A DNA stretch of 33,890 nt, taken from IMG/VR virus record IMGVR_UViG_3300042375_000433, positions 1-33,890 of that record; one strand, 5' to 3'. Source of the DNA: a virus. Position numbers and translations under genes: made by a program. Positions 9,388 to 26,113 of the stretch are shown piece by piece (the first letter of the stretch is position 1; the number at the start of each line of letters is the position of its first letter). Below the pieces are notes generated by a model. The model did no database searches, was not told the DNA's origin, and worked only from the letters and a program-made list of their open reading frames with translations.

Positions 9388-10560
9388 ATGAAAATAAATT
9401 TAACACATAATATTTTAAATGATAAATATACAGAATATGTATATGAAGCATTTGATATTCAAAATAAAAATGAATCAAATGTAACCATTGATGCAAATTT
9501 AGAGAATTTACCTGAAACATGGAATATTGGAGTTGTTTATGGTGGTTCTGGAACAGGTAAAACTACTATCTTAAAAAATTATTTTAAAAAAGAAATGGAT
9601 AAATCTTATTTTGATAATTCAAAATCTTTAATATCTAATTTTGATTGGTTAGAACCAAAAGAAGCTACTTTTTTATTATCTGCAATGGGTTTATCTTCTG
9701 TTCCAACTTGGTTACGTCCTTTTAATACATTATCAAATGGTGAACAATACAGAGCAAATCTTGCTTATATTGTAGGAAGTTCAAAAGAAAATGAAATAAT
9801 TTTAATTGATGAATATACTTCAGTAGTAGATAGGGATGTAGCAAAAGCAATGTCAAATGCTTTACAAAAATATATTCGTAGAACAAATAAAAAAATAGTT
9901 TTAGCATCATGTCATTTTGATATAATGGAATGGTTACAACCAGATTGGATTTATTCACCACAAAAAAGGCGTCTTGAAACAGCGTCATTGCTTCGGCGGC
10001 CAGAAATTGAACTTTCGATATTTCGATGTAGATATGAAACTTGGAATATATTCAAACATCATCATTATATGACACAAGATTTGAATAAAGCAGCAATATG
10101 TTATGTAATATTATGGAATGATAAACCAATTGGATTTATTGCAATATTGCCTTTTCCTCATGGACATATAAAAAATGGTTTTAGAATTTCTAGAATTGTT
10201 GTTTTATCTGATTTTCAAGGACTTGGTATTGGATTTAAAATAATTGATTATTTTGCTTCATTATATTATAAAATAGGAAGAACAATGTATATTAAAACAA
10301 GTAATGTTGCTTTATTTGGAGCTATGGAAAAAAATAAAAACAATTGGAAATTAACAAATGAAGTAAAAAAAGAACAATTAAATTCTGAATGGATGTTAAA
10401 ACAACAAACTTCAGATAAAGGTGGAATGTTAAAATTAAGGAATGCTATAACTAAATCGTTTAAATATATTGGAAATAAATCTAAAGATTCAGAAAATATG
10501 ATTATATTTAATGCCGACGCCTGGAAAGAAGTAGCTCAAAATCAAATATCAATGTTTTAA
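9388..10560 (+). CDS. ABC-type ATPase fused to a GNAT-like acetyltransferase domain
   Basis: A 390-aa two-domain protein. The N-terminal ABC ATPase (about 45-195) has Walker A GGSGTGKTT (52-60), signature LSNGEQ (115-120), Walker B IILIDE (137-142) and an H-loop His (ASCH, H176). No membrane segment is present, so it is not a transporter. The C-terminal half (about 215-325) is GNAT-like with RISRIVVLSDFQGLGIG (266-282), where QGLGIG would bind an acyl-CoA or related cofactor. The ABC-plus-acetyltransferase fusion is an established orthologous group (COG2401) whose reaction is not known to me. GNAT-fold Mom of phage Mu modifies adenine in DNA, so DNA modification is a reasonable hypothesis. 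Confidence 0.85.
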   Translation: MKINLTHNILNDKYTEYVYEAFDIQNKNESNVTIDANLENLPETWNIGVVYGGSGTGKTTILKNYFKKEMDKSYFDNSKSLISNFDWLEPKEATFLLSAMGLSSVPTWLRPFNTLSNGEQYRANLAYIVGSSKENEIILIDEYTSVVDRDVAKAMSNALQKYIRRTNKKIVLASCHFDIMEWLQPDWIYSPQKRRLETASLLRRPEIELSIFRCRYETWNIFKHHHYMTQDLNKAAICYVILWNDKPIGFIAILPFPHGHIKNGFRISRIVVLSDFQGLGIGFKIIDYFASLYYKIGRTMYIKTSNVALFGAMEKNKNNWKLTNEVKKEQLNSEWMLKQQTSDKGGMLKLRNAITKSFKYIGNKSKDSENMIIFNADAWKEVAQNQISMF

Positions 10561-10597: not shown

Positions 10598-10735
10598 ATG
10601 GAAAAAACAACAAAATCAATCGAAATCAAAAAAATGTTAACTGAAAACAAATCAACTAAAGAAATTTCATTATCTTTAAATGTAAGTTCTGCTTATATTT
10701 ATAAAATAAAAAAAGATTTAAACAAAGTTGTATAA
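10598..10735 (+). CDS. Small helix-turn-helix protein (45 aa)
   Basis: A 45-aa protein. After a short basic N-terminus it has one helix-turn-helix: MLTENKSTKEISLSLNVSSA followed by a helix ending in Asp-Leu. The ST-KEIS and NVSSAYIYKI pattern is that of a homeodomain-like or resolvase-type DNA-binding unit. It is the only recognisable candidate transcription regulator in the early region besides the 48-aa protein at 5395. It lies between the ABC-GNAT gene and the predicted small RNA. The size is that of an HTH alone. Confidence 0.65.
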   Translation: MEKTTKSIEIKKMLTENKSTKEISLSLNVSSAYIYKIKKDLNKVV

Positions 10736-10750
10736 TTAAATTTTATTTAT

Positions 10751-10758
10751 TATATTTG
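10751..10758 (+). promoter_or_regulatory. Promoter of the predicted small RNA
   Basis: TATATTTG is a perfect TAnnTTTG -7 element, and TTGT at 10728-10731 is a weak -33 element at a 19-base spacer. No gene start follows closely. The predicted start is about 10762, about 128 bases before the next ATG at 10890. Confidence 0.75.
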
Positions 10759-10761
10759 TAA

Positions 10762-10849
10762 AAGTTAAGGTTTTCGGGAACTATTTAAATTAACTAACTT
10801 ATTAACCCATTGCCAGAGGAGCCCGAACTCCAAAGGCATGGGTTTTTTT
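10762..10849 (+). ncRNA. Predicted small RNA of about 88 nt with pseudoknot potential
   Basis: A near-consensus promoter and a strong terminator enclose about 88 bases without a credible reading frame. The 3' half folds as CCCATTGCC (10806-10814) with GGCATGGG (10835-10842). Inside is a second stem, GGAG (10818-10821) with CTCC (10828-10831), with loop CCCGAA (10822-10827). The 5' part holds TTCGGG at 10773-10778, an exact complement of that loop, so a pseudoknot or an alternative fold is possible. It may be a free-standing small RNA, or an attenuator leader for the replication genes at 10890-13598. No known RNA family is recognised. Confidence 0.6.
10806..10849 (+). terminator. Intrinsic terminator of the small RNA or leader
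   Basis: An 8-bp stem with one bulge, CCCATTGCC with GGCATGGG, is followed directly by seven T (10843-10849). An inner GGAG/CTCC stem extends it. This is one of the two best rho-independent terminators in the window, the other being at 24065-24101. Confidence 0.8.
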
Positions 10850-10889
10850 ATTTAAGGTTATTGATTATCCTAAAATCATTATTATTAAT

Positions 10890-11123
10890 ATGGAAAAAAC
10901 AAAAATTGTATTTTGTTCATCTGAATTATCAGATGTTAATCATGAAATGTTAGCTTATGCTAATACAAAAAATGAAATTTTTATTAATATTTATATCCCA
11001 AACGAAAATAATGGTTATGAAAATCAATTTATTTGTTTAGATTTAATAACTGCTATTAAATTTGTAAAGCATTTAAAAAAAGAAATTGCTATTATAAAAG
11101 AAATGGAGGTTAAAAATGTCTAA
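10890..11123 (+). CDS. Hypothetical protein (77 aa)
   Basis: A 77-aa protein starting MEKTKIVFCSSELSDVNHEM. It looks like a small alpha/beta fold with two strands at the N-terminal half and a C-terminal helix (LDLITAIKFVKHLKKEIAII). No family is recognised, though it resembles hypothetical proteins of Bacteroidota phages in size and place. It overlaps the next gene by 8 bases and is the first of the replication operon, just after the small-RNA terminator. Confidence 0.7.
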   Translation: MEKTKIVFCSSELSDVNHEMLAYANTKNEIFINIYIPNENNGYENQFICLDLITAIKFVKHLKKEIAIIKEMEVKNV

Positions 11124-11817
11124 ATTAGGTTATACATGGTATCCAAAAGATTGGGGTACATCAGAAAGTGTATTTGAACTATCATTAAGTGAAAGAGGTT
11201 TATATCGAGAATTTATTGACTTAGCAATGCTAAATGATAATACTACTGAAATTAAAAAAGATGTTTGGGTTCGTAAATTCTGCGTATCAGATATTAATTT
11301 AAATACTATTTTAGATAAATTATTAAATCTTAATCTTATTGAAATTAATGATAATATATTATTTATTCCAAGTTGCGAAAACCGTTTAAAATTAGTACGT
11401 GGAGGTAGTAATGGAGGTAAAAAAAGTAAGCCTATACATAAGCCTAATAGTAAGCCTATACCTAAGCCTTTTGAAAGCCTTATTGAAAAAAATGCTAAGC
11501 CTACTAGCAAGCAAATAGAAATAGAAAGTAAATATAAAGAAAAAGAAAAAGAAAATAAAGATTATATTGATTTTGCTTTTTTAGAAATATTTAATAAATG
11601 GATGGATTATAAAAAACAAAGAAAAGAAAGTTATAAAACTGAAATGTCTGAAAAATCATTTTATAACTCTTTAATTAAATTTTCAAATAATAATCCTATA
11701 ATTGCAAATGAAATAATTGAGCAGTCAATTTCAAATAATTGGGCTGGAATATTTGAACTAAAAAATAAATTAACAACGTCTAATGGAAATAAGGCATCAA
11801 ACGGAATGGTATACTAA
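11116..11817 (+). CDS. Replication initiator or helicase-loader-like protein (DUF1376-type N-terminus)
   Basis: A 233-aa protein. The N-terminal domain (1-100) has TWYPKDWGTSE and SLSERGLYREFIDLAM, the signature of the DUF1376 winged-helix type found in phage replication proteins. A low-complexity linker follows at about 105-130 with several Lys-Pro units. The C-terminal domain has a KWMDYKKQRK segment and the ANEIIEQSISNNWAGIFELK block typical of replisome-organiser C-termini. This class brings replicative helicases to origins. A rare Shine-Dalgarno-like GGAGG lies at 11104-11108. Its stop overlaps the primase-helicase ATG (TAATG). Confidence 0.75.
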   Translation: MSKLGYTWYPKDWGTSESVFELSLSERGLYREFIDLAMLNDNTTEIKKDVWVRKFCVSDINLNTILDKLLNLNLIEINDNILFIPSCENRLKLVRGGSNGGKKSKPIHKPNSKPIPKPFESLIEKNAKPTSKQIEIESKYKEKEKENKDYIDFAFLEIFNKWMDYKKQRKESYKTEMSEKSFYNSLIKFSNNNPIIANEIIEQSISNNWAGIFELKNKLTTSNGNKASNGMVY

Positions 11818-13598
11818 TGGCAGATTTAAAAGTAATTAACTTAGCAGATAAAAAAGAGTATACCATCGACGTTCACAAAAATGGAGAAAACCAAATGGTT
11901 TGTCCTGAATGTTCAGCAAATCGTAAAAAGAAAACAGATAAATGTTTTAGTTTTAACCTAAACAAAGGAGCTGGACGTTGTAACCATTGTGGGATTGTTT
12001 TAGTAGAAAATAAACCTTTTGAACCTAAACGCATACAAATTGAATTTAAACGTCCTAAAATAGTTGAGTTAAGTAAATATACTGATAACTGTTTAAAGTT
12101 CTTTAAAACACGTTTAATTAGCGAAAAAACGTTATTGGAGTTAAAAGTTACCGAAGCAATTGAATGGATGCCAAATGCAAGAGCAGAAATTCCAACAATA
12201 CAATTTAACTATTTTCGTAATGGAGAACTAATAAATATCAAATCAAGAGGTAAAAATAAAGACTTTAAATTATTTAAAGATGCTGAACTAATTTTTTATA
12301 ACCTTGATGCAACCATTGACAATGAAATAATTATAATTTGCGAAGGCGAAATGGATGCTTTAGCTATTTATGAATGTGGATTTAAAAATGTTATATCAGT
12401 TCCAAATGGTGCAGGATTAGGTAAAATAAACTTTGAATACTTAGATAATTGCATAGATTCTTTTTCAGATAATACAAAGTTTTTATTAGCCTTAGATAAT
12501 GACAAAGCTGGTTTAAACCTACAAAATGAATTAGCAAGGCGTTTAGGCTTTGAAAATTGTAGTAAAATAACTTTTAAAGATTGTAAAGATGCAAACGACT
12601 GTTTAATTAAATACGGAATGAAAGCAGTTATTGATTCAATTAACGATGCTAAAGAGTTTCCAATTGTTGGTGTATTTAACGCCTTAGATATTGAGCGTGA
12701 TATTTATGAATATTATAACAACGGTTTACCTAGCGGATGCGGAATAGGTGTAGGTGAAATTGACATGCATATTAAGTTTCAAGAAGGCTATTTAACAACC
12801 ATAACAGGTATTCCAGGACATGGTAAGAGTGAGTTCTTAGACTTTCTTTTATGTAGATTAAACATTTCACATGATTGGAAAACTGCTTTATACTCACCCG
12901 AAAATCATCCACTTGAATTACACTTTAGTAAGTTTGCTGAAAAAATTAGTGGAAAACCATTTGAAGGAACTAACCGATTAAGTCCAATTGATTTAAAAAA
13001 CTTAATTGAATATCATGCTAAAAATTTCTTTTTTATTAATCCCGAAAACGATTTTACTTTAGATAATATCTTAGCAGCAGTTAAACAATTAGTTCGTAAA
13101 AAAGGTATTAAAGCCTTTGTTATTGATGCTTGGAATAAACTCGACCATCAATATACAACTAATGAAACTAAATATATTTCTGAGCAATTAGATAAAATTA
13201 CAATATTTTGTGAAAAAAATAAAGTACATTGCTTTTTAGTAGCTCACCCAACTAAAATACAAAAAGATAAAACAACTGGTAAATATGAAATACCAAATCT
13301 TTACTCTATTAGTGGTTCAGCTAACTTTTATAATAAAACGGCAAACGGAATAACAGTTTACAGAGATTATGAAACGGGCATAACTGAAATTTATGTGCAA
13401 AAGGTTAAATTTAAGCATTGGGGACAAACTGGATGTATTAAAATGGCATGGGACAAAACTAATGGTAGATATTACAAAGGAACACCAAACTATGAAAGTT
13501 GGATTAATAATATTGAAGCTACAAAACAAATTGATAATACCAACTTTTTAAATGAAACAACTGATTTAATTAACAATAACATAGAAAATCCATTCTAA
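11817..13598 (+). CDS. Bifunctional DNA primase-helicase (T7 gp4-like)
   Basis: A 593-aa protein close to T7 gp4 in domain order. The zinc-binding primase domain has CPEC (C29, C32) and CNHC (C55, C58). The TOPRIM domain has IICEGEMDALA (about 174-183) and ALDNDKAG (225-232). The C-terminal RecA-like DnaB helicase has Walker A TGIPGHGKSEF (330-340) and Walker B AFVIDAW (433-439). It would make RNA primers and unwind DNA at the fork. No phage DNA polymerase was seen, so it presumably works with host polymerase. The gene is coupled to the loader-like gene before it. Confidence 0.93.
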   Translation: MADLKVINLADKKEYTIDVHKNGENQMVCPECSANRKKKTDKCFSFNLNKGAGRCNHCGIVLVENKPFEPKRIQIEFKRPKIVELSKYTDNCLKFFKTRLISEKTLLELKVTEAIEWMPNARAEIPTIQFNYFRNGELINIKSRGKNKDFKLFKDAELIFYNLDATIDNEIIIICEGEMDALAIYECGFKNVISVPNGAGLGKINFEYLDNCIDSFSDNTKFLLALDNDKAGLNLQNELARRLGFENCSKITFKDCKDANDCLIKYGMKAVIDSINDAKEFPIVGVFNALDIERDIYEYYNNGLPSGCGIGVGEIDMHIKFQEGYLTTITGIPGHGKSEFLDFLLCRLNISHDWKTALYSPENHPLELHFSKFAEKISGKPFEGTNRLSPIDLKNLIEYHAKNFFFINPENDFTLDNILAAVKQLVRKKGIKAFVIDAWNKLDHQYTTNETKYISEQLDKITIFCEKNKVHCFLVAHPTKIQKDKTTGKYEIPNLYSISGSANFYNKTANGITVYRDYETGITEIYVQKVKFKHWGQTGCIKMAWDKTNGRYYKGTPNYESWINNIEATKQIDNTNFLNETTDLINNNIENPF

Positions 13599-25647: not shown

Positions 25648-26076
25648 ATGAGTTATATAATTCCACCATTAATTAATGGTAAAAGTTACGAGTATGCAGA
25701 TATTATTGTGAACATCTTAGGTGTTCCAATGGTAGGCATTACTTCAATAGAGTATGATAATAAGCAAAACATGGAGAATATCTATGGGGCTGGAAACAAG
25801 GTTGTATCACGTGGTTATGGTAAATTTGAACCAACTGCTAAGATAACTTTGTTAATGGAAGAGATTGAGAATATTACTTCAGTTGCACCATTAGGAAGCA
25901 TTCAAAATATTCCTGAGTTTGATATCGTTGTTATTTATTTAGATGCAGCTTTGGTTACAAGAAAACACAAATTAAGAAATTGTCGTTTCATGAATAATCC
26001 AAGAAAATCATCTACAGGAGATACTTCAATAAGTTGTGATGTAGATTTAATTATTTCAGACGTAGAGTACATTTAA
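25648..26076 (+). CDS. Tail tube protein
   Basis: A 142-aa protein, the usual length of a myovirus tube protein, directly after the sheath. It has a beta-rich composition with GITSIEYDNKQNMENIYGAG and VSRGYGKFEPTAKITLLMEE near the middle, as seen in tube proteins of contractile tails. It would stack as hexameric rings inside the sheath. There is no strong motif. The call is by position, length and fold type. Confidence 0.8.
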   Translation: MSYIIPPLINGKSYEYADIIVNILGVPMVGITSIEYDNKQNMENIYGAGNKVVSRGYGKFEPTAKITLLMEEIENITSVAPLGSIQNIPEFDIVVIYLDAALVTRKHKLRNCRFMNNPRKSSTGDTSISCDVDLIISDVEYI

Positions 26077-26090
26077 TTAAATATTTTTAT

Positions 26091-26098
26091 TATATTTG
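26091..26098 (+). promoter_or_regulatory. Promoter before the tail chaperone and tape measure genes
   Basis: TATATTTG lies 15 bases before the ATG at 26114. It supports 26114 rather than the TTG at 26096 as the start of the next gene, because the TTG lies within the -7 element itself. It would give chaperone, tape measure and baseplate genes their own transcript. Confidence 0.7.
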
Positions 26099-26113
26099 TA
26101 TAAAAAAACAAAT

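Follow-up and report, generated by a model that had tools for sequence, protein, structure and literature searches.

Architecture of the Locus

The window analyzed in this study is a virus record of 33,890 bases, and the element under study is located at 10751–10849 on the plus strand. A promoter was read from the sequence at 10728–10758 (+), consisting of TTG at 10728–10730, a 20 nt spacer and TATATTTG at 10751–10758. The latter fits TAnnTTTG, and the combination TTG/TAnnTTTG is of the Bacteroidota promoter type. TAnnTTTG was also found in the matching place among relatives when their upstream regions were compared. Direct reading confirmed this −7 box and a terminator at 10806–10849 where the initial annotation had placed them, and no ORF of at least 50 aa was found in 10751–10849, in agreement with its claim that no credible protein is encoded there.

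The 5′ hairpin H1 is located at 10763–10795 (+), as indicated by the minimum free energy (MFE) fold and by covariation in nine relatives. Its outer pairs in the subtype of the window are 10763–10768/10790–10795 (AGTTAA/TTAACT), and its inner stem, 10769–10772/10779–10782 (GGTT/AACT), closes the loop L1, TTCGGG, at 10773–10778 (+). H1 usually starts about 5 nt past the −7 box with regular spacing across elements, and it begins about where transcription should start. An A/T-rich linker at 10783–10805 (+) would bridge H1 and the terminator; across elements this linker has a median length of 20 nt (quartiles 17–23) and is A/T-rich throughout.

The terminator hairpin at 10806–10842 (+) has a predicted energy of −16.3 kcal/mol, with an outer stem at 10806–10814/10835–10842, an inner stem at 10818–10821/10828–10831 and the internal loop AGA/AAA. 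Its apical loop L2, CCCGAA, lies at 10822–10827 (+), and a U-tract at 10843–10849 (+) follows, so that 10806–10849 reads CCCATTGCC AGA GGAG CCCGAA CTCC AAA GGCATGGG TTTTTTT. This is a GC-rich hairpin with a U-tract directly behind it, as is characteristic of intrinsic terminators. In L004, L012, L073, L080 and L328, the internal loop is AGTA/GAA, which is the pattern of the loop E (sarcin-ricin) motif.

Behind the element lies a small gene of 77 aa without family match (10890–11123, +), which is the first gene in the subtype of the window. It is followed by the gene of a replication initiation O-like protein (11116–11817, +; phrog_678, E 5.6e-9), the usual gene after such elements, and by that of a TOPRIM primase/helicase (11817–13598, +; Pfam Toprim_2 and DnaB_C), next in the replication operon. 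A second, separate hairpin, TGATT-ATCCTAA-AATCA, occupies the leader of the 77 aa gene just ahead of its ATG (10862–10878, +). It was found at the same place in L012, L017, L019, L022, L024, L030, L032, L069, L319, L323, L328, L335 and L404; the stem covaries (TGATT/AATCA, TGGTT/AACCA, CGGT/ACCG, AGGT/ACCT, CAGTT/AACTG), and in relatives the loop ..CTTAAA is conserved, with AGTT preceding. This hairpin is likely a translational operator, perhaps serving autoregulation by the small protein. On the other side of the element, positions 9388–10560 of the window encode a 390 aa protein in which an ATPase domain is joined to a GNAT acetyltransferase domain, and parts of this DNA show 72–75% identity to phages of Nonlabens, Tenacibaculum and even Pasteurella.

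Complementarity of the Two Hairpin Loops

TTCGGG and CCCGAA are both six-base hairpin loops, the former at the tip of the 5′ hairpin and the latter in the terminator loop of the MFE fold, and they are exact complements, as had been pointed out in the initial annotation. L1 and L2 can therefore form a predicted kissing helix of six pairs beside both stems. The energy of the L1/L2 duplex is −7.8 kcal/mol in the window, with a class median of −9.9, and the GC content of kissing segments is 58%, against 28% for the genome.

Nine alignable relatives were used to count covariation. The structure of 28 pairs was formed in 93.6% of the cells of this alignment, and its covariation score was reached by none of 500 shuffles. 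All six kissing pairs were formed in 100% of the relatives, and in three of these pairs both partners had changed. Pairing was kept at 100% in the inner and 94% in the outer stem of H1, and at 97 and 83% in the inner and outer stems of the terminator, respectively, with compensatory changes in both hairpins. The covariance check proposed at the outset thus gave compensatory changes in the stems as well as in the kissing helix, and the pairing, whose loss in relatives had been named among the observations that would speak against the proposal, is conserved. For instance, TTCGGG/CCCGAA is replaced by TGTGCG/CGCACA in relatives with complementarity kept, and further complementary loop pairs include GTGCAT/ATGCAC, CTGCAAG/CTTGCAG, GTGAGATTT/AAATCTCAC and GGCTAGAC/GTCTAGCC. 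In all, 45 different kissing segments were listed.

An ordinary terminator might be complementary to a hairpin loop by chance, a possibility to consider as the window alone offers only six bases and the z-score of its MFE fold is about −2, which alone is not striking. This explanation is refuted by a re-pairing test on 34 dissimilar clusters from flavobacterial phages, collected blind to complementarity, with a promoter and a terminator preceding a replication gene as the only criteria. The score was the longest perfect complement between the terminator loop and the upstream part. A perfect match of at least 6 nt was present in 34/34 elements (6 nt in six, 7 in 14, 8 in 11, 9 in two and 10 in one), whereas swapped partners reached 6 nt in 14%; over 20,000 random re-pairings, on average 5.6 of the 34 matched, and never more than 14. 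In two of the 34 (L327 and L332) the match is perhaps due to a wrong parse. Several viral contigs are near-duplicates, and the statistics rest on distinct sequences. Taken together with the covariation, these results leave chance complementarity with a negligible probability.

The loop letters differ almost everywhere, and the elements have a structure in common with hardly any shared sequence. Two hairpin loops whose complementarity is conserved and covaries are what defines a kissing-loop RNA, and both the structure and its covariation are well supported by the sequences compared. The pairing suggested in the initial annotation is therefore real, but its description as a loop-to-5′ pseudoknot needs correction: TTCGGG is not a loose 5′ strand, being the loop of its own hairpin (GGTT-TTCGGG-AACT), and the contact is loop to loop. 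The further suggestion that TTCGGG competes with the inner GGAG/CTCC stem was not borne out, as both helices are kept together in relatives and the linker would permit their coexistence. Diversifying selection on the loops was also considered and dropped, as loops are shared by close relatives.

Position Relative to the Downstream Genes

A set of 59 elements, from which a few doubtful matches had been removed by hand, was examined for the genes that follow. In 58 of them a same-strand ORF starts 7–53 nt after the terminator stem (median 25), and the lone exception, that of P12002L, is a mis-parse whose start is actually 13 nt past the stem; in L021 the ATG overlaps the stem end. After other terminators of the same loci, a start codon was as near in 33 of 244 control cases. 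No TAnnTTTG box was found between terminator and start codon in any of the 59 elements. The position is thus that expected of an attenuator, a 5′ leader on the same strand as its gene without a further promoter. Because the same-strand start lies 7–53 nt downstream with no new promoter between, the identification of the element as a cis 5′ leader is well supported; both this placement and the lack of a further −7 box ahead of the gene are shown by the sequences. The genes downstream include replication initiators of different families, a helicase and HNH nucleases, and in other relatives that do not have the 77 aa gene the replication gene itself begins 7–25 nt after the terminator.

These positions bear on the proposal in the initial annotation that the element is a free-standing small RNA. 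A small RNA gene independent of its neighbors is not supported, since 58/59 elements are near a start codon. In a broader form of the proposal, the terminated RNA would be a stable trans-acting small RNA (a regulator, decoy or sponge) with hairpin-sealed ends, the kissing loop would be a stability device and the downstream gene a bystander reached by read-through. A compact RNA enclosed by promoter and terminator, with a 5′ end that should coincide with the first hairpin, is consistent with such a role. However, an independent RNA gene would not need the same-strand start codon found downstream, the scarcity of shared sequence beyond base pairs leaves no conserved target seed, and the loops, which would be the natural seeds, are occupied by each other. 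We therefore regard a trans-acting RNA as unlikely.

The U-tract was also examined. Among 51 detected elements followed by ATG, 42 had 4–7 T within 8 nt after the stem, a T-run not having been required for detection, and several of the nine outside this range are mis-parsed. The U-tract is short (4 T) in some relatives, and in L077 (approximately position 2882), where the kissing pair ACGTGGAA/TTCCACGT is retained, it is seemingly absent after the terminator stem, which would suggest a role other than termination for that element. Because of the short U-tracts and the L077 case, some members of the class may terminate only weakly. Such cases, and start codons down to 7–10 nt from the stem, would also fit a 5′-UTR element for translation or mRNA stability, in which a folded block by the start codon would restrict the loading of ribosomes or shield the 5′ end, with few transcripts ending at the U-tract. 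A U-tract would be needless for a translational element, yet it directly follows the stem in most elements even when unselected, and this function appears improbable to us.

Distribution in Related Phages

Among the viral stretches scanned, 93 relatives of the O-like replication protein were found, and the order upstream is promoter, 5′ hairpin, A/T-rich linker, terminator hairpin and U-tract. Promoter and terminator were located by pattern, and loci without a clear terminator were left unscored; in this way the program recognized the element at 41 of 58 distinct replication genes of the O-like family, and approximately nine more were recognized by eye. No element is present in L025, L079 and L082, and in L065, L071 and L072 another kind of leader stands ahead of the replication gene. 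Because of these relatives, the kissing-loop leader is evidently not indispensable. By eye, the leader of the latter three is seemingly an H-type pseudoknot (e.g., GGAG..CTACGTT..CTCC..AACGTAG in L072).

Five isolates carry the element at their replication locus, namely Cellulophaga phage phi10:1, Flavobacterium phages 11b and filifjonk9-1, Polaribacter phage P12002L and Tenacibaculum phage JQ, the kissing match of the last being 10 bp long (AGCATCCTAC). A covariance model of the subtype of the window independently recovered the copies of filifjonk9-1 (E 0.003) and P12002L (E 0.03) where they had been predicted. The element was not found in Nonlabens phage P12024S, Flavobacterium phage 6H, Riemerella phage RAP44 and Bacteroides phage B40-8. 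In six element-bearing phages, the complete signature is almost confined to the replication locus. Two stretches of the window, 26074–26103 (+) and 2375–2402 (−), resemble the promoter stretch of the element (89–90% over 28–30 bases) and are likely sister promoters; a scan of the window found no kissing-loop terminator after either. A pattern scan of viral contigs for TTCGGGAAC...GCCCGAAC gave mostly chance matches owing to its wide gap, along with the true relatives L138, L145 and L167.

On the bacterial side, no element was found in 400 kb of one Flavobacteriaceae chromosome, and a search of 397 Flavobacteriaceae genomes with the covariance model gave no match, a weak result since the model reaches close relatives only. 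The replication protein is present in two of these 397 bacterial genomes, and no element was seen directly ahead of either gene.

Extra copies of the element precede a gene for a 739 aa helicase, HNH nucleases, another replication protein and small genes. L033/L208 has two copies per genome, and L230 and L315 have three each, all with different loops. Such copies would be compatible with a self-sensing dosage control, in which L2 of released leaders binds L1 of nascent leaders in trans and the copy number of the phage thereby sets proportionally how far cis-kissing and read-through are altered, like plasmid antisense RNAs, with different loops keeping copies and co-infecting phages apart. L1 and L2 are indeed complementary in trans too, GC-rich loops of 6–10 nt are typical of kissing antisense RNAs, and the element precedes a replication initiator. 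On the other hand, cis pairing should outrun trans pairing, and the loops do not change obviously faster than the stems among close relatives, being identical in several close pairs. The orthogonality of copies in the same genome was seen, yet it is expected by chance given the number of loop types. Dosage control by this route is thus considered very unlikely.

Proposed Model of Attenuation

Considering the above results, we consider the element to be most likely an attenuator that acts in cis in the 5′ leader of the replication operon and has a kissing loop inside an intrinsic terminator, and we hold this interpretation with moderate confidence. Among the alternatives offered in the initial annotation, this is the one favored here, that of an attenuator gating the replication operon, ahead of which the element sits. 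In the proposed model, host RNA polymerase would start at the TTG/TAnnTTTG promoter, and the nascent RNA would open with H1. After approximately 20 A/U-rich nucleotides the terminator hairpin would emerge, and its apical loop would pair with the H1 loop by 6–10 perfect base pairs. Because the kissing helix and the closed terminator stem can coexist, bridged by the linker of approximately 20 nt, kissing should clamp the terminator, and would speed and stabilize its folding. Most transcripts would then stay short, approximately 85–90 nt, and the replication genes would be made only by read-through, either at a fixed low level or upon prevention of the clamp by some factor. Termination in vivo, its promotion by kissing, the regulation of read-through and the trigger or factor are what we infer from the arrangement. 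No antiterminator alternative fold was found, and the switch is therefore not visible in the sequence.

A bolder extension would be a purely structural, sequence-free class of phage leaders in which RNA alone, through a terminator-embedded kissing loop, determines how strongly the replication genes are expressed. Such a leader might respond to the dosage of the terminated RNA that it gives rise to, and the loop pairs would act as independent channels for several genes or phages. We consider this extension unlikely. If the element works as proposed, replication in flavobacterial phages is gated by an RNA device. The element is carried by cultured phages of Flavobacterium, Cellulophaga, Polaribacter and Tenacibaculum, which makes the model readily testable.

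Comparison With Known Systems

No Rfam family (release 15) matched the element of the window or 20 relatives at the gathering threshold, the best sub-threshold score being 21.4 bits against 56.1 required, in line with the initial annotation, in which no matching RNA family was known. In the literature, no description of such an element was found, and some papers on flavobacterial phages do not treat promoters, terminators or RNA structures.

The leader before Q in phage lambda, pR′-tR′ (6S RNA), consists of a promoter, a short leader, an intrinsic terminator and a gene with no further promoter. This arrangement is used for late genes in lambda, whereas replication genes follow here. Neither lambda 6S RNA nor AlpA-type units are known to have a conserved kissing loop. 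The element shares the order of promoter, leader, terminator and gene with both, but their factor acts at promoter DNA. In lambda, a short RNA results from this order unless a factor lets polymerase pass. The same is reported for AlpA-type units (PMC7969949, PMC9371919).

The HMP-PP (thiS) riboswitch is a gene-leader terminator hairpin with a built-in tertiary pairing (PMC6478431), and the element too has tertiary pairing built into a leader terminator. In contrast, the aptamer and the full terminator stem of HMP-PP are mutually exclusive while both stems of the element can coexist, and its ligand-binding bases are strongly conserved while the pairs of the element covary freely without a conserved core. 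A riboswitch of this kind was rejected, as the elements share structure and hardly sequence, and their variation is compensatory. The put RNA of phage HK022 is a leader of approximately 70 nt with two stem-loops near an early promoter that acts on termination (PMC9378689). The element is likewise a two-hairpin phage leader RNA; however, put has no terminator, works through specific bases in contact with RNA polymerase, and is not described as having a pairing between its loops. Membership was rejected, as the element contains a terminator and, by eye, has no such shared unpaired bases across clusters.

Type III toxin-antitoxin RNA (ToxI) is similar in that a pseudoknotted RNA and a terminator are followed by a gene, but the element has no tandem repeats and the genes behind it are mostly replication genes. 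A type III antitoxin RNA was rejected, since a single unit is followed by the 77 aa gene without family match and a replication gene. In ColE1 RNA I/RNA II and in plasmid attenuators with antisense RNA (pT181, pIP501), loops of 6–8 nt kiss and exert control ahead of replication. Those systems use two RNAs, one of them antisense, whereas both loops of the element are in one transcript, and no −7 box was seen on the opposite strand just behind the element in the window.

These RNAs have nothing but the pairing conserved, so that searches by sequence are unable to group them; this would account for the class having been missed. Natural terminators clamped by a loop-loop contact, with dozens of loop pairs, would be useful programmable parts. 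The conservation of pairing amid a near-complete change of letters points to an RNA control device that has not been described before. A covarying kissing loop is known in none of HMP-PP, put, lambda 6S and AlpA-type units, and the element is an attenuator-like leader with a new architecture.
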